The position numbers and the translations under genes were made by a program. From Hyaloscypha bicolor E (lineage: Eukaryota > Ascomycota > Leotiomycetes > Helotiales > Hyaloscyphaceae), in the NCBI RefSeq assembly GCF_002865645.1, contig NW_020194557.1, forward strand, positions 1,178,001-1,242,000: a DNA stretch of 64,000 nucleotides, given 5' to 3'. Below the pieces are notes generated by a model. The model searched no databases, had not been told where the DNA came from, and saw only the letters and a program-made list of their open reading frames with translations. This document shows positions 12,290 to 64,000 of this stretch, one piece after another; positions within the stretch are counted from its first letter, which is position 1, and each line of letters starts with the position of its first letter.

Positions 12290-14852
12290 ATGGATCCACT
12301 TAGCATCAGCGTGAGCATCATCGCCATCCTTGAAGCATCTCACGCCGTTCTATCTATCTGTTACGATTACCGCGCCGGCGTGAAGGGGCTCTACCTGGGG
12401 ACTAACCCGCGTAATCGAAGAAGCAAAATCTCTTCGCACCGTAGTCGAAACTCTTGGAAGTCTCACGCCAACCGCCTCAGTCACCTCGGAGGAACACAAT
12501 GCAAATAAAACTACAGCGTCACGACTCCCGACATTATATCTACTCTGCAAGCCCAATGGCGATAGAAGAGCATTATTAGACCTTTGTCTAGAGGAGCTCA
12601 AAACGATCGAGAGGAAGCTAACGCCACCAGGATGGGCAGGACCGGCGGGTTCGAAGAGGTTGGCAATCGTTCGGGCACTAGGCTGGCCGTTCCAGGAGAA
12701 TGACTTCACGGAGAGGTGTTAGTATAATGATTCATTATCTCCCAGTTCCCGTTTCTCTCTCCCTTTACAGTTTATTTTATACTTCACTTGCTCTTGTTTC
12801 TGCCCTCGTGAATTGCTTTTGCTTCTCTTCCCGAAGGAACGTTTAGTAGAATTGCTGATCTAATGTCTCAGTGGAGACAATTGGGAGGTATAGGGATACA
12901 TTGAATTTCGCTATCACTGCAGATGAAACGTGAGTTTTAGATCTTTCCACTACCTTTCAATTGAATGATGCCAAATTGGTAGGAAAGTTGGAAGACTTCC
13001 GTTTTTAATAGAGAAGTTCAAGTATTGATATATCCAAGACCCAGCGGCTCCCTGACCAGGCTTTCCAAGGGGTAACTGCTCACACATTCCCTAGGGCCTT
13101 CGTGCTAAAGATTGACGAAGTGGTGCAAGCAATACGGGAGGAGACATTGGGGGTCCATAATGAGGTTGGCAGGGCGATCAAATCAATTAATAGCATCAAG
13201 ATCGGTACCTTTAAACCCTCCATGTTAGAAAATTCAGCACGGTAAAGTGACAAACACAAGATAGCCACCTCCAAAAGATACATGACTGGCTTGCTGCACC
13301 AGATCCATCCTCGAATCACGTCGATGCACTTAGAAAACGACAAGCGACGACAGGTTCATGGTTCATTGGGGGCGGAAAGTTTGCCTATTGGAAGACAACC
13401 CCGAATTCATTTCTATGGCTTTACGGAATTCCTGGGTGCGGCAAAACTATTCTCACTTCGACGATAATCGAAGAAGTACGAACTCATTGCGAGCTGAATC
13501 TTGATATAGGGGCTGCTCCGAAACCACCTCCCACTTGGGCAGTCGCTTACTTCTACTTCGACTTCAGCAGTCAAGGTAAGCAGAATCAGGAGACAATGAT
13601 CCGGTCGCTCATCAAACAGTTATCCGAGCAAAATTCACACACTTCGGAGGCTCTGGACTCACTGTTCTCTTCATGCACCAATGGGAATCGTCCACCAACG
13701 ACCGAAGCTCTTCGAACTTGCTTGGGACTAATAATTGCGGAATTTGACCGTGTATTCATTATTCTCGATGCTCTTGACGAATGTGCCAACAAGGACGAGC
13801 TTATGAACAGTATTCAAGAAATTGTCGGTTGGGATCTTGAGATGCTGCATGTGCCAGCCACAAGTCAGAAGAAGAAAGAGATCGAAGATGTACTTGATCC
13901 CACCCTTACAGACGAGCAAAAAGTCTACATCCAAAGTGGTTTGATTGAAGGAGACATTCGTGCATGCATCTATGCGCGGCTTCAGACTGATAGGAAGTTG
14001 AAGAGATGGCAGAAAGATGAGTATTACTTACGGATGATCGAAACGACATTGATAGGAAGAACTGACGGAATGTAAGAGATATTTCTTCTCTTTTTGGTAT
14101 GAAGCCGTGACTGAAATCACTGATCAGGTTTCGGTGGGCTGCGTGTCAGCTCGATGCGTTGGAGAAATGCATTCAACCACGCCAACTTCGACTCGCACTC
14201 GCGTCGCTGCCGAAAACGCTTCATGATACATACGCGAACATACTATGCAGCATTGATCAAGACAGCACTGAGAATGCATTGAAAATACTTTAATGGCTAG
14301 CCTACTCGGCTCGACCCCTTCGAATTGAAGAAGTCGCCGACGTAATTGCTGTCAACGTCAAAAGCAAACCTCGAGCTGATCCCGATTCCATACTCCCAGA
14401 GCCGCGAGACATACTTACCATCTGCTCCAGTCTCGTTACAACATATGAGGATGCAGCATGGCATTCTATTGGGAAGAGTGTAGGGGAACAAATCAGACTA
14501 GCACATCTGTCTGTCAGGGATTATCTTACCTCAAAACAAATCTTGGATGGCAAAGCTGCTCACTACAGCATCCAGGAAACTCATGCCCACGAGGCTATTG
14601 CTGAGATATGTCTTGCATATCTCCTGCAGTTTGACAAACCCGACTCGTTGTCTCGGGTAGCCGCCAACGACTACCCTCTTGCCCAGTACGCAGCAGAGTA
14701 CTGGGCCCATCATGTTCGAGCGTCTGGAGCTGAGAAAAGCCAAATTGTTCTACTGATCATGGAACTATACTCTGATTAAGACGCGTTTTCCAATTGGCTC
14801 CAACTGTTTGATCCAGACGAGGCTAAAACTTACGCATTACTCCGGAACATCA
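12290..14852 (+). pseudogene. Broken NACHT (STAND) NTPase gene with fungal NLR N-terminal domain
   Basis: The start MDPLSISVSIIAILEASHAV (12290) is the usual opening of the fungal NLR N-terminal domain. The frame shifts within 100 bp, and homologous sequence continues in another frame (VIEEAKSLRTVVETLGSL ... AIVRALGWPFQENDF), then after introns resumes at about 13080 and 13290. The NTPase follows: P-loop FLWLYGIPGCGKTIL near 13420, DRVFIILDALDECAN (Walker B) at about 13745-13795, and the winged-helix-like AYSARPLRIEEVADVIAV near 14300. Lesions: the early frameshift, a TAA at 14291-14293 (KIL*WLAYS, where CAA/CAG is usual) and a TAA at 14777-14779. No ankyrin or WD repeats are seen before the Zn2Cys6 gene starts, so the C-terminal part is short or lost. 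Its original role would be in non-self recognition. Confidence 0.8.
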
Positions 14853-16796: not shown

Positions 16797-17714
16797 CTAC
16801 ACTATCTCTGGTCTAACCCAAGCGGAATCCCACGACCATATATTCAATCCTACCTTCATTCCTGACCTGACCGGTAAGCCGGCATGATAGACGCCCTTGT
16901 GCCCGGTCCCATTAGGGTGAAAATTCTCCCAATATATGGCTGATCCCACAATCGGCTTGAAAATCACGCCCTGGTAGCCGTCCCTCCCTTCCTCGTCACA
17001 CTCGATGACATCGCACCAGCGTGTATCTCTAGGTTGCGGCAAAAACGGGAAATTCGTCCCTCCTCCGGTGCAGTTGCCCACCAGGTAAGCCATAAAAGTC
17101 GTAGCCCGGTTTCCCTGGGCCAGAGATTCGTCCCAGTCGAAGTGATAGCTGTAAAACCCGTCGACATTGTACCGCTGGACCAACAGGGGCTCGATGAGTG
17201 TGGCATTGCCGCGCCAGCCTTGGAACTCCCTGGCCCGCTTTGAGATGCGGCGAACCACCGGGTCCTTGCGATGCATGAACGCAGACTCGGAGACTCGCGT
17301 CTTTTGGTCGATTGGCCTCTCATCCAAGCCGCCGTAGACCCTGGATGGCTCGTATTTGTCCTCACTAACGGTGTGTACGAGTTAGTTGATTGCTCCATTT
17401 GTACAAAAGTAGTCTATTATATATACTCCATACCTGATATCGAGCAGGTAAGCAATCTCGTCGCTACTCACGAAATTCCGGATGTAAACAATGAGTGGAT
17501 CTCTCGAGAAGATCTGAACTTGATATTTCTGCTCGTCGTGGTTCAAATTTGGCGTGCAAAGGCTGGCCATTTGTTTGCAAACTGTTTGGCCAACTGCGGA
17601 GCTCGAAATACTGAAATCAGGTAGGAGGTGACCAAAAAGGGCAAACATGGCTCCAGCAATAGCTATAGAGAAATAAAACGTATGCAAGAAACTCAAGCCT
17701 GACATTGAAAACAT
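16797..17714 (-). CDS. Prolyl 4-hydroxylase-type 2OG-Fe(II) oxygenase (P4H-1), membrane anchored
   Basis: Two exons on the minus strand, 17714-17434 and 17364-16797, with a phase-2 intron of 69 bp (GTATGG...GTTAG); 282 aa. An N-terminal hydrophobic segment (about residues 8-30) looks like a signal anchor. The P4H alpha-subunit-type core follows: an entry block SRDPLIVYIRNFVSSDEIAY, then the iron ligands H168 and D170 in YHFDWDES and H254 in YHAGLPV, with K264 in GMKVGLNIW to bind 2-oxoglutarate. All catalytic residues are present. Such enzymes hydroxylate Pro in secreted or ER peptides; the Pro-rich microexon peptide encoded 0.7 kb upstream on the same strand is an obvious candidate substrate (inference). 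A paralogue lies at 20368. Confidence 0.9.
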
Positions 17715-18408: not shown

Positions 18409-19335
18409 CTACTCTTCTTCCTAGCATACCCATCGCATAAGAGTCGTTGCTTCAAAAAAACGTAAAGAAGTACTTACGGGAAGGGAAACTCCGGGAGGCT
18501 AGTTTGCAGGTCAGCGGCGTCGCAAAAAAATAGAGAGAGGTTACTTACGACCTGGATTAGATTCATAGTATTAGCATCTGCATCCCGAAGCATCGTGTCA
18601 AACGGCTAAGATACACTTACAGGCTAAATCTAGTATTACCACCGCTTCTAGTAGCAGTAAATCTCTCAACACAAACGTGATATTACTTACGCACTGTATC
18701 GCAGCCATTACGTTAATAATTGTATCATATACGGCAGTTAAAATACACGCTTGTAAGGATTAACTCACGGCCTAAACAAATGTCAGTTACATCCGTAGGT
18801 ATTCCCAATGGCCATTCCAAGAGGAAAAGAAGGTATACTTACGGGCTGGTTATGTCCATTATATTAGTACACCTGTATCCAGCAGTCTATATTGAAAACT
18901 GGTTATGAAGCGACTCACGCCCTTCGTCATGCCAATCATGTTAGTAACCTGTGACCTCGTTGCTATCAAGCACCGAAGGAGGATTCACTTACTTGCTATA
19001 CCACACATATCGAATTAGCATGGCACTCCAATAAGGGTAACTATCTCAAGCAATGGGTGGAGATTTACTCACAGGCTAAGTTGTAATAATTGTGTTAGTA
19101 TTCTGTGATCTAGTAACCGCCAACCGGAGGAGATTAGAGGGGCTCACAGTAGGATCCTTTAGAGCGTGTTAGTATGAATTCCTTGAGTCGAAATCTAATT
19201 GAAGAGAAAACGCACTCTGGAATCAAGAGGGACTGGGACTCTTCTAATCAAGCCCGAAGTACATCCGTCAGGCACAAGAACGGCCGCAGTCGCTAAGGTT
19301 GCGAAGAGGAAACTCAGGAAGATGTTGATCTGCAT
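18409..19335 (-). CDS. Secreted Pro-rich peptide with eight consecutive 3-nt exons; candidate RiPP precursor
   Basis: Minus-strand gene of 12 exons (61 aa). Exon 1 (19335-19216) encodes signal peptide MQINIFLSFLFATLATA and a stretch with one Cys and an RR dibasic site. Then: exon 2, 19156-19148 (DPT); eight single-codon exons at 19075-19073 (P), 18995-18993 (Q), 18921-18919 (G), 18845-18843 (P), 18771-18769 (A), 18693-18691 (C), 18623-18621 (P), 18551-18549 (V); exon 11, 18498-18478 (PPGVSLP); exon 12, 18420-18409 (EEE, stop). All introns are phase 0, 50-77 bp, with GTGAGT/GTAAGT/GTGAGC (intron 1 GTGCGT) donors, YAG or AAG acceptors, and mostly clear CTAAY/CTGAC branch points. The peptide is Pro-rich with two Cys; the prolyl hydroxylases and UstYa-type oxidases around it suggest it is their substrate (inference). 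Exon 12 is the least certain. Splicing needs RNA proof. Confidence 0.85.
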
Positions 19336-19437: not shown

Positions 19438-19444
19438 TTTTATA
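19438..19444 (-). promoter_or_regulatory. TATA box of the microexon peptide gene
   Basis: TATAAAA on the minus strand about 105 bp upstream of the ATG at 19335. Position and sequence fit a fungal TATA element. Confidence 0.45.
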
Positions 19445-20006: not shown

Positions 20007-20367
20007 AGAATACAACCAGCCCTTGTCAAAATCCAAATAAGAAATCTGGGAGGCGTTGTGGTATACAACTAACATACGATAGGTTGAAGGTGCAAAGGAC
20101 AATTAATGCCGAGTTTCAAAGGAATGTCCAGTGCTTGTCGGGTCCCTTTAGTCCTCGTACCACCGAAATAGGAAGGCCAAGTAGGGACTAAGGCTTTTTG
20201 ATCTCCAACACTCACCTACCCTGCCCAAGTTTTGGCCTCAGGTGTGACAAAGGTGCAAAAATCTGTGGTATCCATAGTCAGACGTCACTTGCCAGACTGG
20301 ACGTGTTTTCGTTTCTCTATGCCCCAAACCAGTGTTTTCAAAACAACTACAAACACGAAGTTGGCAT

Positions 20368-21363
20368 GCCTTCAGCTATGGTAAGAATAGTGATGCCGAT
20401 ACTTTTCACTTATAGAATATTTCTAATGCAACGAGAATGTTAAGGAACCTCAGACGAAATACGCAATCCTGCTTGTGCCGATTAGCATAATGATGCTCAG
20501 TATCTTGCGCTGCGGACAATTTATCTCCGAGCATAGCAGCAGCATCTTCAATGTTGCCATTCCGGGACATCTTGATACGGACTCCTACAGCTGTGACCAG
20601 AGCTACACGATTGAGCTCCTTTCAATTGATCCACTTGCTATATACATCAACAATTTCTTACGTGATGAGGAGATAGAACATCTCCTAGAATTGGGGTAAG
20701 TATTCTCTACGCTGGGGAACCAGTGTCTGTCTCTTGGAAGCTAACATTGTGACTTCTAGAAAGGATAGCTTTCGCATATCCCTAGTATTCACGGGCTCCG
20801 AGGGCTTTACGGAAGTCTTGAATCAGACACTTCGCAGCTCTCAGACCGCCGTTCTACCTAAGGAAGACATTGTATGTGAGTGTTTGACGAAAAGAATGAA
20901 ATCCATCCTCGGCAACGTCCAGCACATGGAGGTCGAAACGCTGCAAATTGTCAAATACGACGCAGGTGGTGACCATTATAAATCCCACACGGACTGGTTC
21001 GACGCGCCAAAGAACGATCTCCCATATGGCTCAGAAGGCGGATCAGAAAAGCCGAGCAATCGCCTAGGAAGCATCTTTGCCTATCTCGATGATGATTGCG
21101 AGCGCGGTGAGACTTATTTCCCATTTCTGCCGAGCGTATTAGAGTCGGCAGATGTAAACAAGTTCGCTCTAGCAGCTGGGGACACCGGGTTGCTTGTTAA
21201 ACCTCGACGAGGGAATGCTATCTTTTGGAACAATCTGCATGGGAACGGATCTGGGGATGAGAGAACGGCTCATGCAGGCATCGCGGTGGAGTCGGGAACC
21301 AAGATTGGTCTCAATATATGGAGCAGGTACTTTTTGGATGAACCAATGGTTGGAGGGGACTAG
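20368..21363 (+). CDS. Prolyl 4-hydroxylase-type 2OG-Fe(II) oxygenase (P4H-2)
   Basis: Proposed exons 20368-20382, 20436-20695 and 20760-21363 (292 aa). The first, encoding MPSAM, is tentative: it joins in frame to NVKEPQTKYAILLVPISIMM and so gives a membrane anchor; otherwise translation starts at the ATG at 20490. The second intron (GTAAGT...CTTCTAG) is secure. Core features: SIDPLAIYINNFLRDEEIEH entry block, iron ligands H168 and D170 (SHTDWFDAP) and H263 (AHAGIAV), and K273 (GTKIGLNIW) for 2-oxoglutarate. All catalytic residues are intact. It is a diverged paralogue of P4H-1 with the same architecture, transcribed away from the peptide gene. Two P4Hs beside one Pro-rich peptide suggests site-specific hydroxylation (inference). 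Confidence 0.88.
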
Positions 21364-21452: not shown

Positions 21453-22498
21453 CTAATCTACAATACGAAGGCTGCCGTTAAGGAAACTTTGAATGGTCTC
21501 AAACCGAGTACGTTGTGAAGTTGCCCAAGCATGAATCTTGTCAAAATTTCTGCAAGTGTGGCGAGTATCCGTCTTCAAAATGATTTTAGACCCAACGAGC
21601 CTCCATTCCATAGGCGTTAGGTCTGCGTGACATTGGAGTGACTGCCGGATATGGTTAATGCAGTGATCTACTTTGATTAGCTGCAAGACTATCTAAAGTA
21701 TCAGAATTTTTTGTAACACAAACCTATGTGGTTAACGCGTGATGGATCCATTGGCCTGTCGAAAACATGGGTGTAGTAATCGGGATACATCGCCTGACGG
21801 AGACGGTTCTAGTAAAGGCTATTAGCTGCTGTGTTCTTGGAGAACAGTTAGAGGGAAAGACGTGTATACCAAACAATGGAGTGAATGATATACATCCAGC
21901 CCGCTGAAGTAGAAGCCTGATTCTGGCCATTGGAACGTCGAGTCTGCTAGATTTACTTCATTTTTATCGAAGTCAAGATTCAATCCTAATGAGCTATCAG
22001 CAAAGATTTGTGTTTTCAACTCCTAATTATTTATACTGACCTCCTAGAAGCATTTCCCACGCTTCATCAACTGCTGATTCGGGTGGTCCAACGTATTCGT
22101 GTCCCCCCTGATCTGTGAAGAAGTGGCCTTCGCTATTCAATTCGACACCCCCTGAGAAACTTTTAACGACTAATTCAATTTCGCTCCGGGCAGGTTCTAA
22201 AGGAAGGAGTTAGTCAAATGGTATAAAGAATCTAGATTTAAATGCTATTTTGTATGTACGTACCGAGATCCGAGGGAAATCCATTTTCGTATGATGCCTT
22301 AGCGATTGAATCTTGTTTATGAGTTGAAGTAAAGAAGCCGAGAAACGCAAAAAAAATATTAAATGAGACAGAAATAATGAGAAGGAGGGGCAGAAGCTGT
22401 AGGTCCCTCTTCGACGACTGTGACGATATCTCGGTGGTTTCCAGCAGATTTTCCTCCTCTTCTTTTCCCATATTGTTCTTGTATGGGACACCAAACAT
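21453..22498 (-). CDS. UstYa-family (DUF3328) oxidase, copy 1
   Basis: Five exons on the minus strand: 22498-22264, 22196-22041, 21985-21870, 21808-21724 and 21670-21453; 269 aa, all junctions in phase. An N-terminal acidic cytosolic part is followed by a transmembrane segment (LLPLLLIISVSFNIFFAFLG). The DUF3328 body then shows EYVGPPESAVDEAWEMLL, the first motif HSLHC (H164, H167, C168) in VYHSLHCL, then NRLRQAMYPDYY, and a second motif HIVDHC (H196, H200, C201) followed by INHIRQSLQCHAD. The second motif has one more residue than the usual HxxHC. UstYa-type proteins catalyse oxidative cyclisation or side-chain oxidation of RiPP core peptides (ustiloxin, phomopsin, asperipin pathways), so it is a strong RiPP marker. 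It is divergent from the HxxHC gene at 23036. ATGs at 22498 and 22471 are both possible starts. Confidence 0.88.
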
Positions 22499-23035: not shown

Positions 23036-23749
23036 ATGAAATACGACAAAGTTGAAGGGACAGAAGACGCTAACTCGGATCACGACCTAACTGAGGGCTT
23101 TCTCTATGACGAGACACCTTCCGCACCAAGACCGCAACGTTTCGGTCGTTTTTTATGGCTCGTAATCACTGAGAATGTTCTCATCGCCCTCGCCGTCTTC
23201 GCCTTATGGAAGACATTTGTTCCACCGCGTACAAACCTCCACTATCAAGTCCTCACCGCGGACAACAAAACTTATCCATCGGGCCCGCTGTCCTGGTCGC
23301 AGCACTTCGAGGCACTGCCGTGTGGCAAAACGCCTGAGGAGGCGCGAGCCCGAGGATGCGAATTTGACATGCTCGTCACCGCATGGCTACCACCAAAATG
23401 TATCGATCGCGAGCTGGTCGATGAATTTTTGGAATTGGGCAACTGGGACTTCTACGCAAGGCAGGACGGCACGGAAAAGGACAAGTTAAGCACCTACGAC
23501 CCCGACTTCCTGGGATCGGTCAACAGAACCATCTGGACCACAAGACGCTGGCATGTCACTCATTGCCTCTTCATGTTCAAGAAGCTGAGTCGAGCATTGG
23601 TAAATGGCTGGACGGTGGACGCCGAGGCTGTCTCGGAGCCGCACATGGAGCATTGCATGAAGACGTTTATTGAACAAGTGTTGTTTGGGCCCAGTCTTGA
23701 TCCAAATGAGATAGAAACCTACCTGGAAATCATCTACCCACCATGTTGA
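23036..23749 (+). CDS. Single-pass membrane protein with paired HxxHC motifs (UstY-like)
   Basis: Single exon of 237 aa from the ATG at 23036. An acidic N-terminal tail precedes a transmembrane segment (about residues 38-58, FLWLVITENVLIALAVFALW). The lumenal part has CEFDMLVTAWLPPKC, a WDFYARQDGT block, and two HxxHC motifs: HVTHC (H173, H176, C177) and HMEHC (H203, H206, C207). Topology and motif pair match the UstYa/UstYb group, though the sequence between is a different subfamily common in ascomycetes and often annotated as hypothetical. It shares a promoter with UstYa-1, which fits the paired UstYa/UstYb arrangement of dikaritin clusters. An oxidative role on the peptide is inferred; the biochemical function of this subfamily is unknown to me. 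Confidence 0.8.
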   Translation: MKYDKVEGTEDANSDHDLTEGFLYDETPSAPRPQRFGRFLWLVITENVLIALAVFALWKTFVPPRTNLHYQVLTADNKTYPSGPLSWSQHFEALPCGKTPEEARARGCEFDMLVTAWLPPKCIDRELVDEFLELGNWDFYARQDGTEKDKLSTYDPDFLGSVNRTIWTTRRWHVTHCLFMFKKLSRALVNGWTVDAEAVSEPHMEHCMKTFIEQVLFGPSLDPNEIETYLEIIYPPC

Positions 23750-24782: not shown

Positions 24783-26077
24783 ATGGCCATAGATTCAGGG
24801 GTCCCGTCCTTCATCGAGCGGTGTCGTCCGTCTCTGTTTGTCTTAGTTTCGCAAGTGGTCGCTGCTACGCTGAATACCGTGGCAAAGTTCAGTGAGACAA
24901 GACCCGAGGCAGTCCATCCGTTCATGATCCTACACATACGGATGCTGATCACGGGACTCGGATGTACACTGTATCTTTGGCATATCGGATCCTCAAAGTT
25001 AGAGGTCTTGATCGGAATACCAGATGTGCGAGGTCTTATCTTATTGCGGGCCTTTGGTGGAGTTTGTGGTGCTACGGGATTCTTTTGTACGTTTTGTTGT
25101 CCATCTCTCTCATTCCGAGAATCTTTTCATCATGCGAGTTTAAGATATTTGACTTGTTGGTCGTTACACTAACTCACCAACTTCACACTAGTCTCCATGA
25201 TATACTTGAGTCTCAGTGAAGCCACAGCTTTGAATTTTCTGGGCCCTCTAGGATCGTTGATCCTAACGAGGTGCCTGTCCTTCGCCACGGTCCATTGGAC
25301 TGACTGCATCGGCGCTGTAGGCGCGCTTGTAGGCGTTGTGCTCGTAGCCCAGCCTGAAGACATATTTGGCATGACAGAGACCGGTTCTGATGTCTCTGGA
25401 AAGGTGCACGGCCACTTGAAAGGCTTGGCTTTTGGTGTCTTTGGAGTCTGCGGAGGTGTAGTAAGTGATGATAGCTTTCATTGCGATAGATTTGGAATTC
25501 TTGACTGCTGAAGGACTAATATCTCCATAGATTGCACTAACGTCAATCCGTCGGATTGGGACGCGGACTCATCCACTAACAAGTGTCAATATGTTTGCGT
25601 GGAGCCTGGTGTTTGTGAGCGGGATCGCCCTTATGGTAATTCCAGAAATAAAATGGCCGAGGAGTCCATTTATATGGGCTTGCTTAATATATATAGGCAC
25701 CTGCGGCCTCGCGATGGTAAGTTAACTGCATCTTATCTTTTACCCTCCTCTTTGGAAGGCTTCCGACTCAAAAACCTTCTTAGGAATATCTCCTCACAGT
25801 TGGAATATCGAGGGACTCATCTTCAGCTGCTACGCTCATGATCTATACTCAGATAGTTTGGGCTCTCGCAGTGGACCGCGCTTTATTCCAAATTACAACC
25901 AACGCATGGGCCCTTTTCGGTGCCGCAACTATCATCAGCAGCCTGTGTCTTGTCACTGTAGTTGGGGAAGGCGGACAATTCGGCGGCGGCATTTATACAC
26001 ATCTAACGAGTGAAGAAGACGAATACGCAGAAAGGTTGAGTTTGGATGAACTCCACGCTGAACAGATTAGTCTTTAG
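24783..26077 (+). CDS. EamA/DMT-family membrane transporter
   Basis: Four exons, 24783-25086, 25192-25460, 25531-25716 and 25784-26077, with all junctions in phase, give 350 aa. About ten hydrophobic helices are arranged as two EamA repeats: the first contains ALNFLGPLGSLIL near the end of the first half, the second IALTSIRRIGTR ... TLMIYTQIVWALAVDRALF. Both carry the repeat pattern of the drug/metabolite transporter superfamily. The hydrophilic C-terminus is acidic (SEEDEYAERLSLDELHAE). In a peptide cluster, export of the product or a precursor metabolite is likely, but the substrate cannot be read from sequence. The ATG at 24783 begins the first homologous block; an additional short 5' exon is possible. 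No stops or frameshifts are seen. Confidence 0.85.
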
Positions 26078-27944: not shown

Positions 27945-28799
27945 ATGGCGTCCAAAGAGATTGCATACCAGCCTCTAGAGAGGTCCTCTGATGATATCCG
28001 CGATGAGGTTCTGCTTCAACATTATGCCACAAGCACTGGAAAGCAGCGCTGGGAAAGAATTGTTTGGACATTGTGTATTCTTGCCATCGTGATCAGCAAT
28101 GGAGTCTGGTTCGGTGTTTACAAACACCAAAAGAACGTTCCTGGTAAAACGTCAATCTATTTTGCTCGTCGTTGGTAACTTTGATGGCTGACTTTGTTCT
28201 CGCCTGCTTCTAGCTGCCAAAGAATATCACGTACTCTCCCCCTATGAATACGCAACGCCATACGTTGACGGTAATCTTACGGAGATGAATCAGCTTTGGA
28301 CAGACCTTTTCCCGCGTAAGAAAAGCCCTCTTCTCGTCATATTAAGAAGACTCCAGTTGTCTGACAGACCAAAAACGCTTAGGAGGTGGCGGAGCGGTCA
28401 AAGTAGATCCCCAATGGGCCATTGACAGTAACCTTCAACAAACACAAGGGTATGCCGCAGACGGGAAGGCTATATATGTTGTTGCAATGTACCATCAGCT
28501 TCACTGTGTTGTAAGCCGCCAGTCGAAAGAGTCCAGTGAATACCGTCTAGAAACTGACAGAGACCAAGACCGTTATCCGCACCAGCCTTTACCAACAATA
28601 CAACGGACGCAAGCAGATCGATAATTGGGGTCATATCACCCATTGCATTGATACTTTACGACAAGGGATACAATGCTTAGCCGACCCAACTCTTGGTGGC
28701 GTTGGTGCGAACCATGAGTGTCGAGACTTCGAAGCACTCAAGAGATGGACGAAGGAAAATGCGTACACGGACAATCTGGACCTTTTGAACATCGAGTAA
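27945..28799 (+). CDS. UstYa-family (DUF3328) oxidase, copy 2
   Basis: Four exons, 27945-28143, 28214-28315, 28368-28510 and 28563-28799, give 226 aa. The last acceptor must be GAG (CAGAG|ACC) to keep frame, which is unusual. After a cytosolic N-terminus comes one transmembrane helix (about residues 39-58, IVWTLCILAIVISNGVWFGV). The DUF3328 body has YATPYVDGNLTEMNQLWTDL, the first motif HQLHC (H143, H146, C147) and a second, HITHC (H172, H175, C176), within GHITHCIDTLRQGIQCLADP. Both metal/redox motifs are canonical, so this is the most typical UstYa homologue in the window. It lies past a TIR element, so cluster membership is likely but a little less sure than for copy 1. Role: oxidative cyclisation or modification of a RiPP core (family knowledge). 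Confidence 0.9.
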
Positions 28800-60871: not shown

Positions 60872-61250
60872 GTTGAACAGGTAGAGCTCTGGTCGGTGGT
60901 GCTGGCGTCGTGACCCTCAAGCCTGAAGCTGCGGGGTTGGGCACGCCTTTTCAGCTTCGAGTCAAAAGAAAAACTTCTAAAACGCCACGCTCGTGGTATA
61001 GTGGCTATTGGCATATTGGTAGCACTAAATCGGGCCTGAAACATGACCTAAGGGGCATTGGTACAAGCGCGGTGGCTGAGTGCCACAACATCCAGGGCTG
61101 AATCACGAGGATGTGTCACAGTGTCACTGACCTGACCCCAAGAAACACAGCCTCCATCCTAAAGATGTGAACTCTTTTGCTATCTCCATCAACTTAAGTC
61201 CAGTCCCCGAACAATTCGTTCACCAACACTCGTCACGCTTGTCCACAGCA
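60872..61250. promoter_or_regulatory. Divergent promoter of the gasdermin-like and CHAT genes
   Basis: A 379-bp head-to-head intergenic region that would co-express both genes. No TATA box stands out. Confidence 0.5.
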
Positions 61251-64000
61251 ATGGGAGAAGCCTCGGGGACAACAACCTATCACCTGAGAATACTCGCTGA
61301 AGCCTCGAAGACGGACGTGCCTGGATGGGGAGTCGCTGTGTATCTCGGCGGGGCCTGTTTTGCCAAGAACATCACACTTTCAGACCCCTTCACAAATATC
61401 GAAGAGGATGAGTGTCGGTGGTATCTGGAAGACTATCTCACCAAATCCCCTTTCGAGAAGGGCAGAGCAGAGCTCGCTGTCGAGTCCCTGAATTCGTATG
61501 CAGACAGTTTGTTTGAACAGTTGCATCTGAGTCGAGTCTGGAGGAGGCTGAGTGACAAGACAAATCACTCCAACAAAGTCCTCGAAATAGATATTGTGGA
61601 AGACACCAAAGACTCCAGCTCTGTCTCATCGGATACAATCCACCGACTTCATTGGGAAGTTCTCGAGTGGCCACGACTATGGAAGCATATCAGGCTGCAA
61701 ACATTACTCCGGCGTATCATCCCGCAAAATGAAGCAACGAATCTCACCATTAACAGAGTTGAGTCTTGGTCGAGAGGGGTGCCGTCGGTCAACGTGCTGC
61801 TTGTGATATCACGGAGACTTATCAATCAGGGAGCAGATGAGGTGGATCCGAACTTGGCATTACAAAGCCTCCAAACTCTTCAAAAAGATTTGGAGACTCG
61901 AGAAGCACCCTTCCGCCTTAACATTGAGACCGTTCGTCCAGGCTCATTCAAAGCCTTGAAAAGACACTTGGAAGAAAGATCTGAACGTCAACACAGCGGC
62001 GATGTTCATATTGTTCATTTCGATGTACATGGCCGAGTGGGTCTTCGAAGCGTGAAAGGGGAAGACAAAGCAACAACGGCAGCTTTCCTTTATTTTCAAT
62101 CTGGAAAGGGCGACGGCAGATTGTCCCCAACTCGAGCTGGGTCCGTTGCGGACCTCTTGCGGAAACACAACATTCGTATTGCCGTCCTTAATGCTTGTGA
62201 ATCTGCCAAGGCAAACAAGGGAGACGAGGCGAACCTAGCAAGAGTCTTCACCAAAGCCGGCGTTCAGAATGTACTTGCTATGGCGTATAGGACCCTTGGG
62301 AGCACATCAACGGAATTCATGCGTGCCTTTTACGAGGCTCTCATCGCCAGAGGCAAACCATTTTCGACGGCTATACGTATTGCACGAGAGCACCTACGCG
62401 CATCACCAATTAGAGACGCCCGTTTCGCTCTCAGGAGATCACTAGAGGACTGGATCGTACCTGTTGTGTACGCAAGTGGAAAAGATGTTGAGCTTCATAT
62501 TTCCTCTGTTGAGAAAGGTGTCCTCGCCCTCGAGAATCCAACACTTACCACAACAACTCCCAAAGACCAACTTACAACTCCTCTTACGCTCTTTGGGCGC
62601 GGTTTTGACGTCCTCAGGTTCGAAACTATTTTCCTTGCCTCAAAGCTCATTGGAATTTCAGGTCCTGCAGGAGTTGGAAAGACTGCGTTCGTTCACCACC
62701 TTTTGCGCTGCTGGAAAGACACGCGACTGTACGAAAAGACACTTTATGTGGACTGTGCGTCAATCGATGTGAGTGAAGTCGATACTCCCGGAGCGCTATT
62801 TCAACGAATCTTAAGTGATGAAAATCCGGGGAAGAGTGGCCAATTTGAGGAAGACGAGACCGTATATCGATCCAACTTGTCAGAACTTGGGAGCCATTTT
62901 CAAGTCATCGTTTTCGATAATCTGGAAGCAAGCCACTCGGCATTCAAAGAAATGGACGAACATGGTCGCTGGCCAGAAAATGCAAGAATTGCTTTGGTAA
63001 CCCTGATAAGAGATATCATCAACAGCAGATCACAGTACGAAGAAAGCCCGTCACTGATTTTGGTTGGGAGACGGGATGACGATGACTGGTGGGCGGGGCA
63101 GTTCCCAGACCTGCCTGGATTTCCCCGCTATAAACTGAGGGATTTGTCCCATCCGGATGCCATAGAGCTCTCTCATAATGTTCTTGAAGATTTAGGATTC
63201 GACAGAAGTCAGTGGAACAATGAGGATGAGAATATCTTGTCACAAGTTCTGAACATACTTCAATGCAACCCATTGGCCATTGATATCGTTCTAAGAACAG
63301 TTGTCTCCAAGAATCATCCCTGGAAAGAATTGTTCAATCAGATATTATTCCACCAATTCACCGGAGCATGGCTTTTGCATGAGTACCAATGCCGCTTTCA
63401 AACCCGAGACATAATGTTTGGTAGTAACACGGGACCCCTTTCGGAATATTATGCCAACGTCTACTGCAATTTGACCCTTTACTGGCACGAAGGACCAGTA
63501 AAGGATGTTTTTCAAAACTGGTTGGATGCTTCTCTAGAGGGAGGTGGTTGCAAAGCGATCGAATTTGGGGTCGATAGGGGATATTTCTCTTTGAATCCCG
63601 AAGGACGTATCGAACAGATCCACCCATTGTTCACTCTTCTCGGGCGCTCCATATTTCCTTTGGTACCTGGAATTCTTGCAGTGGGGCTTGTGTGGGCGAT
63701 GGCAGCGGAGGAAGAATCATTGCCAGATCAGTTTGTCGAATAGTTCGTCGCGTTATTCTTCCAGGGGATGTGGAGTCGAAACTTAAATGAACCACTACGT
63801 TCAAACGTCGTCGATGGAAAGTTCACAGAGATAGAGAAAGATGCGAGGCCGGCCTTCTACAACATTCTCACCTGTCTAAAACTCTGCTCGATGGGTAAAG
63901 ACTTCGTCTATCCAAGTATCTGGCCGGAGGATCTAATCGTATACGTCACCCTTGGAATATATTTTCTTTCCGTGGACGAGATGTCTCTTCTTATCAAACA
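61251..64000 (+). CDS. CHAT protease-NTPase (STAND-like) protein with in-frame TAG; 3' partial
   Basis: Starts at the ATG at 61251 (MGEASGTTTYHLRILAEAS) and is open to a TAG at 63741-63743; the same frame then continues open to the window end (FVALFFQGMWSRN ...). The CHAT caspase-like domain spans about residues 150-400, with catalytic His260 (VHFDVHGRV) and Cys316 (IAVLNACESAKA). A P-loop NTPase follows: Walker A GPAGVGKT at residues 471-478, a Walker-B-like FQVIVFDNLEA near residue 550, and SLILVGRRD. C-terminal repeats, usual in such receptors, would lie beyond the window. In fungal gasdermin modules the protease activates the pore-former; that role here is inferred. The TAG sits where CAG would fit (DQFVE*FVALFF), so the allele may be truncated at 830 aa. 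Confidence 0.85.

Follow-up and report, generated by a model that had tools for sequence, protein, structure and literature searches.

Eight consecutive probable single-codon exons in a predicted secreted-peptide gene of the fungus Hyaloscypha bicolor E

On the minus strand of a 64,000-nucleotide stretch of the Hyaloscypha bicolor E genome (82 Mb, 76 contigs), hereafter called the window, eight three-letter segments lie in a row, each bounded by a splice acceptor and a splice donor. The locus raises the question of whether these triplets are exons of a gene and, if so, what kind of product such a gene would make. An initial annotation had proposed that they are consecutive single-codon exons of a small secreted-peptide gene, and all eight, each with its acceptor and a GTAAGT or GTGAGT donor, were found where that annotation had placed them. 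Joined to their neighbouring segments, they form an open reading frame of 61 residues plus stop codon that occupies exactly positions 19335 to 18409 of the minus strand, and a segment-by-segment check placed all 12 coding segments in phase 0 at both ends, as had been claimed for the triplets. In the direction of transcription, the features of the gene model are:

19438 to 19444, minus strand: TATAAAA, about 100 nt 5' of the ATG, read by eye and a consensus match only
19216 to 19335, minus strand: exon 1, 40 residues, with the ATG, a signal-peptide-like segment and an RR (Kex2-type) site read from the translation
19157 to 19215, minus strand: intron 1, 59 nt, GTGCGT...TACTAAC...AAG
19148 to 19156, minus strand: 9-nt exon GATCCTACT, encoding DPT
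19073 to 19075, minus strand: single-codon exon CCT (P), bounded by acceptor and donor
18993 to 18995, minus strand: single-codon exon CAA (Q), bounded by acceptor and donor
18919 to 18921, minus strand: single-codon exon GGC (G), with an AAG acceptor
18843 to 18845, minus strand: single-codon exon CCC (P), bounded by acceptor and donor
18769 to 18771, minus strand: single-codon exon GCC (A), bounded by acceptor and donor
18691 to 18693, minus strand: single-codon exon TGC (C), bounded by acceptor and donor
18621 to 18623, minus strand: single-codon exon CCT (P), preceded by intron 8, which has the weakest branch point
18549 to 18551, minus strand: single-codon exon GTC (V), bounded by acceptor and donor
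18478 to 18498, minus strand: 21-nt exon, encoding PPGVSLP
18409 to 18420, minus strand: last coding segment GAAGAAGAGTAG, EEE and stop, which requires the removal of intron 11, with its GTAAGT donor and weak branch point

The 9-nt and 21-nt exons that flank the run, and the AAG end of intron 1, go beyond the initial annotation. Together the ten internal exons (9 nt, eight times 3 nt, and 21 nt) supply 54 of the 186 nt, and exon 1 most of the remainder. The hydropathy peak of exon 1 reaches 2.46, slightly below the 2.60 and 2.66 of two repeat-type precursors encoded in the same genome, and the tail of the peptide carries seven prolines in its last 21 residues and no tyrosine. A bacterial promoter and terminator scan was also run and is uninformative for fungal DNA. 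A small secreted-peptide gene with eight consecutive single-codon exons is the best reading of the sequence.

The splice signals around the triplets were examined one intron at a time. Four of the eight triplet acceptors are TAG, three are CAG and one is AAG, and every triplet is followed by GTAAGT or GTGAGT as its donor. The regularity of 67-77 bp noted at the outset proved to be that of introns 2-9, which measure 67-77 nt (50-77 nt over the whole gene), while the distances from triplet to triplet are 80, 74, 76, 74, 78, 70 and 72 bp. Branch points matching YTRAY are found in introns 1-7, 9 and 10, in a TACTAAC context in introns 1, 2 and 4, so that the earlier statement that most introns have one stands at nine of 11; introns 8 and 11 are poor in this respect, the candidates being TACTAGA 6 nt from the end of intron 8 and AACGACT in intron 11. 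With the motif list widened to take in these two introns, no AG intervenes between the assigned branch point and the acceptor in any of the 11; in intron 9 the assigned motif sits 5 nt from the 3' end, and a TGCTAAT further upstream yields the same acceptor. GTRAGT donors occur in nine of the 11 introns against eight of 34 in the control set (Fisher p 0.001). The control introns were predicted by fusing open reading frames, and only those with G at position 5 and a good branch point had been admitted.

Sites of the form HAG-NNN-GTRAGT were counted in order to ask how often such a series arises by chance. The window contains 11, eight of which belong to the chain; outside the array region it has three, and the longest chain is one. 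Fifty other loci of the same genome, totalling 288,078 bases (loci overlap, and one, L026, lies inside the window), hold ten sites and no chain longer than two. In 300 dinucleotide shuffles of the window the longest chain was two in one shuffle, one in 267 and zero in 32, and an estimate that assumes independence gives about 1e-19 chains of eight per genome. Under looser settings (exons of up to 30 nt, weak donors) the array scores 10 and chains elsewhere reach five. When a model built from the eight junctions was applied to 19 records (244,000 bases), it returned those eight and two further matches at E 2.4-2.5. The initial annotation had called a chance origin implausible; with a chain of eight against at most two in the shuffles and the other loci, chance as the source of the array is excluded.

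Searches for relatives of the peptide and of its DNA returned little. A protein search gave two candidates, none at E<=0.001, in a comparison with predicted proteins that an unpredicted microexon gene would escape, and exon 1 searched against its own genome matched only itself. Two loci that had come up as possible paralogues, L003 and L004 (E 0.006 and 0.08), were rejected: both matches vanish when exon 1 is used alone, and L003 on reading has no such gene. A DNA search of the genome with the 927-bp region likewise found only the region itself, at a sensitivity that diverged or very short copies would escape. Introner-like mobile introns were rejected as a source of the array, as near-identical copies of the introns were not found outside the locus by this search.

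The introns of the array do, on the other hand, resemble one another, a similarity that the initial annotation had not seen. The mean z score of intron-interior alignments was 1.73 for introns 2-9 (28 pairs) and 1.27 for all introns (55 pairs), compared with 0.21 for controls (561 pairs); z exceeded 3 in 4 of 28, 5 of 55 and 12 of 561 pairs, respectively, and in 6 of 55 with an earlier set of shuffles. Taken as a whole the difference from controls has a Mann-Whitney p of ~2e-8, with the qualifications that the pairs are not independent and that the similarity is weak pair by pair. A block of CAG, 2-4 nt and CTAAY is common to introns 2, 4, 5 and 9, and the branch point lies 18-19 nt from the acceptor in introns 2, 3, 4, 5 and 7. 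Because introns 2-9 are more alike than the control introns, the sequence suggests that the array grew via tandem duplication of an intron-plus-codon unit, each duplication adding one residue; this would explain in one step why the introns are similar, the spacing is even, the phase does not vary and single codons come in a run. Tandem Repeats Finder reported no array at the locus, so the duplications, if real, would be old.

The same resemblance, together with the lack of a peptide relative in the protein and own-genome searches, might be taken to mean that the locus is a decayed pseudogene or a non-coding tandem repeat with only the look of introns. We regard this as very improbable, since GTRAGT donors in nine of 11 introns, an AG at every unit and phase 0 throughout are not expected under decay, and the blank result of Tandem Repeats Finder indicates that the units diverged while their signals persisted.

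If the triplets belong to a gene, the fungus must be able to splice such exons, and other genes of the genome bear on this point. A scored scan was run over 53 records (359,125 bases, overlaps included) for high-scoring introns that follow one another with no more than 12 nt of exon between them. It listed five rows of at least three introns. The array itself accounts for three of these (the window and two overlapping copies), at a count of seven introns owing to the weakness of intron 8, and the other two are genes elsewhere:

L037, 5519 to 5383, minus strand: laccase-like gene with consecutive 3-nt exons ATG and TTG, followed by a 16-nt exon
L039, 6284 to 6201, minus strand: PDI-like gene in which two 8-nt exons follow each other and supply FVAPW of the thioredoxin domain

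The joined product of the laccase-like gene reads NPYVDSPNTGVLRKYDLTVGR and aligns without gaps to the multicopper oxidase structure 5lww across the tiny-exon stretch. When the ATG and TTG exons are dropped, scores against the nine best PDB laccases fall by 2.0-3.4 bits (5lww from 144.9 to 141.6), while chains that align only after the 3-nt exons keep an unchanged or slightly higher score. Two introns of this gene end in AAG, and the AAG ends of introns 1 and 4 of the array are therefore no objection to the model. In the PDI-like gene, skipping both 8-nt exons would remove 16 nt and so shift the frame. The 10-kb stretch that carries this gene also holds a prolyl 4-hydroxylase paralogue. Homology thus supports retention of the tiny exons in the predicted proteins of both genes, and with two such homology-backed cases, splicing of 3-nt and 8-nt exons in this fungus is very likely. 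The reading of the window locus as a secreted-peptide gene with single-codon exons, put forward in the initial annotation, gains support from them.

These two genes also bear on a different view of the triplets, namely that the AG-NNN-GTRAGT sites are way stations of recursive splicing, or of a nested-intron (stwintron-like) arrangement, and that the region is removed stepwise as one complex intron with most triplets lost from the main mRNA or skipped. An acceptor-donor gap of 3 nt does resemble a ratchet point, and since every triplet is frame-neutral, skipping would be harmless. Each intron is, however, complete and of ordinary size (the control introns measure 48-95 nt), the 649-nt segment between the 9-nt and the 21-nt exon would require no ratcheting, and in both control genes homology favours retention of the tiny exons. 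We consider recursive removal improbable.

Eight successive 3-nt exons would hardly be spliceable unless their introns are recognised independently and removed in sequence. Each short intron may be recognised whole through the donor, branch point and first AG that it carries (intron definition), in which case the exon itself would need no signal; as 3 nt cannot hold two spliceosomes, neighbouring introns would be removed one after another.

The surroundings of the gene suggest what its product might be for. Neither the prolyl 4-hydroxylase-like genes nor the UstYa genes listed here had been seen in the initial annotation:

16797 to 17714, minus strand: prolyl 4-hydroxylase-like gene (domain at 16800-17381), about 0.7 kb downstream on the same strand; gene ends placed by eye
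20366 to 21363, plus strand: prolyl 4-hydroxylase-like gene, about 1.0 kb upstream and divergent; start codon placed by eye
21516 to 22498, minus strand: UstYa gene, PF11807 62.8 bits at 21516-21944, above the curated cut-off; start placed by eye
23036 to 23749, plus strand: UstYa-like membrane protein, PF11807 19.1 bits, below the 25-bit cut-off
24816 to 26077 (approximate), plus strand: EamA-like transporter gene of several exons, PF00892 18.4 bits on one exon, cut-off 28.2
28572 to 28760, plus strand: second UstYa match, PF11807 44.9 bits

The downstream hydroxylase-like protein matched PF13640 at 33.1 bits and the PDB prolyl 4-hydroxylases 7zsc (E 1.6e-10) and 5c5t (E 2e-10), and the upstream one matched PF13640 at 32.9 bits, 7zsc at E 5.9e-10 and 2jig at E 2.8e-7. 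For the upstream protein, 70 proteins were found at E<=1e-10, the best match at 97% and the best named ones being the ascomycetes Xylaria grammica at 82% and Ustulina deusta at 81%, both members of the Xylariales. An HxD, an H and a K are conserved in all seven rows of an alignment that includes both flanking proteins; we take HxD...H to be the catalytic residues and K to bind 2OG. With a 2OG-Fe(II) domain that carries these residues, the flanking genes are predicted to encode prolyl 4-hydroxylases. The UstYa gene lies about 2.2 kb upstream of the peptide start codon, and its N-terminal part scores 23.5 bits against a cut-off of 25.

Further out, positions 26000-50000 of the window form an AT-rich island with a GC content down to 0.17, perhaps a block of repeat-induced mutation, which has a HET-domain gene inside it, others beside it and the UstYa match at 28572. 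A CHAT-NACHT protein gene lies at 61131-63740 and a NACHT gene at 13251, both resembling fungal immune receptors.

A proline-rich secreted peptide between two prolyl 4-hydroxylase-like genes and near UstYa points to a RiPP pathway. We consider it likely that each of the eight triplets is an exon of one codon, in a gene whose predicted product is the secreted precursor of a UstYa-type ribosomal peptide with hydroxylated prolines. Most likely this would be a fungal RiPP precursor of a new form, with a tail written codon by codon. Its precursor would enter the ER and might be cut after RR; both hydroxylases could then hydroxylate the proline-rich tail, and UstYa could oxidise it.

Compared with known dikaritin precursors, the locus has a UstYa/DUF3328 gene nearby but lacks tandem core repeats separated by Kex2 sites, the 61-residue product having a single RR and no repeats. 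Typical Kex2-repeat precursors, with KR-separated repeats, do lie beside other UstYa genes of the genome (L008, minus strand from 694; L051, minus strand from 4439). As Kex2 repeats and a tail tyrosine are both absent, we do not file the window peptide as a dikaritin, although it is likely to work like one.

The same two absences would also suit an ordinary secreted effector or other small protein outside RiPP biosynthesis, in which case the microexon gene would be real and the hydroxylase and UstYa genes coincidental or active on other substrates. UstYa genes are common in the genome (60 exon-level matches), which adds to this view, and we give it a minority share of our belief; against it, two of at least seven prolyl 4-hydroxylase matches in the 82-Mb genome (E<=0.01) directly flank this proline-rich secreted peptide.

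A bolder extension of the RiPP reading is that splicing itself builds a peptide library. Since the ten internal exons in a row are all frame-neutral and eight consist of one codon, skipping could give up to 1024 in-frame precursors, duplication of the intron-plus-codon unit would lengthen the peptide residue by residue, and promiscuous prolyl hydroxylases would modify the mixture. We hold this to be unlikely.

A second candidate for a small secreted-peptide gene was found in another UstYa locus:

L042, 4423 to 3853, minus strand: exon 1 ending RDPNGTGLYVIYRYYF, a 16-nt exon, then three 1-nt exons, and a tail with PEPATV at its end

Its peptide resembles that of the window in its MQ start and in an RDP at a comparable position, in a model that was picked by demanding the tail and the RDP motif, other models ranking higher when unconstrained. 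The rule of the first AG after the branch point gave no model at this locus, and under a looser rule models arose in 0 of 200 shuffles. Exon 1 is 93% and 91% identical to two 56-residue open reading frames (ena, jgi) with the same frame end-point. The use of 1-nt exons by this gene is tentative.

If confirmed by cDNA, the window gene would mean that splicing can assemble a protein residue by residue. It would be an extreme test of minimum exon size and a compact natural substrate on which intron definition could be tested, would represent a peptide natural-product architecture in fungi that is invisible to mining for Kex2 repeats, and would suggest that peptides can grow codon by codon through intron duplication.

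A run of single-codon exons was not found in the literature searched, which left aside most subscription papers and all preprints outside PMC. The micro-exon genes (MEGs) of Schistosoma encode secreted products through many short exons, mostly multiples of three in length; these exons are mostly 15 bp, the smallest having 6 bp according to the text and 3 according to the abstract, and the introns range from 100 to almost 5000 bp (PMC10526429). The window gene, with ten internal exons in phase 0, has the many tiny frame-neutral exons in common with MEGs but differs in its introns of 50-77 nt, which fall outside that range, in its eight 3-nt exons in a run, and in being fungal and beside modifying enzymes. 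Aphid bicycle genes, putative effectors, also have many unusually small internal exons, almost all in phase 2 (PMC9168663), whereas the window gene is in phase 0 and belongs to another organism and another protein; the portion of that paper available mentions no single-codon exon. Among exons of 1-3 nt, 1-nt ones are known from Arabidopsis APC11 (PMC4674806) and from plant VPS55, where the tiny exon has GTRAGT donors (PMC8831610), and homothorax of Drosophila has a 3-bp exon (PMC7392893). As described in these sources, such exons are isolated, while those of the window gene form a consecutive run that would encode a peptide tail.

Among filamentous fungi, Trichoderma virens Xlr2 has a microexon that gene models missed, and the paper that reports it states that functional microexons had previously been undescribed in these fungi (PMC11121469). 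That case is one 20-nt switch exon, against eight single-codon exons here. The precursors of UstYa-type peptides (the dikaritins ustiloxin, phomopsin and victorin) consist of a signal peptide and tandem Kex2-bounded repeats (PMC7329392, PMC9632046); the window gene shares with them a predicted secreted precursor beside UstYa genes, and differs from their published descriptions in its single, non-repeated, microexon-encoded proline-rich tail and its two prolyl 4-hydroxylase-like neighbours. Set against the sources consulted, the microexon gene as a kind is known, while its form as a run of single codons and its link to peptide biosynthesis appear to be new.
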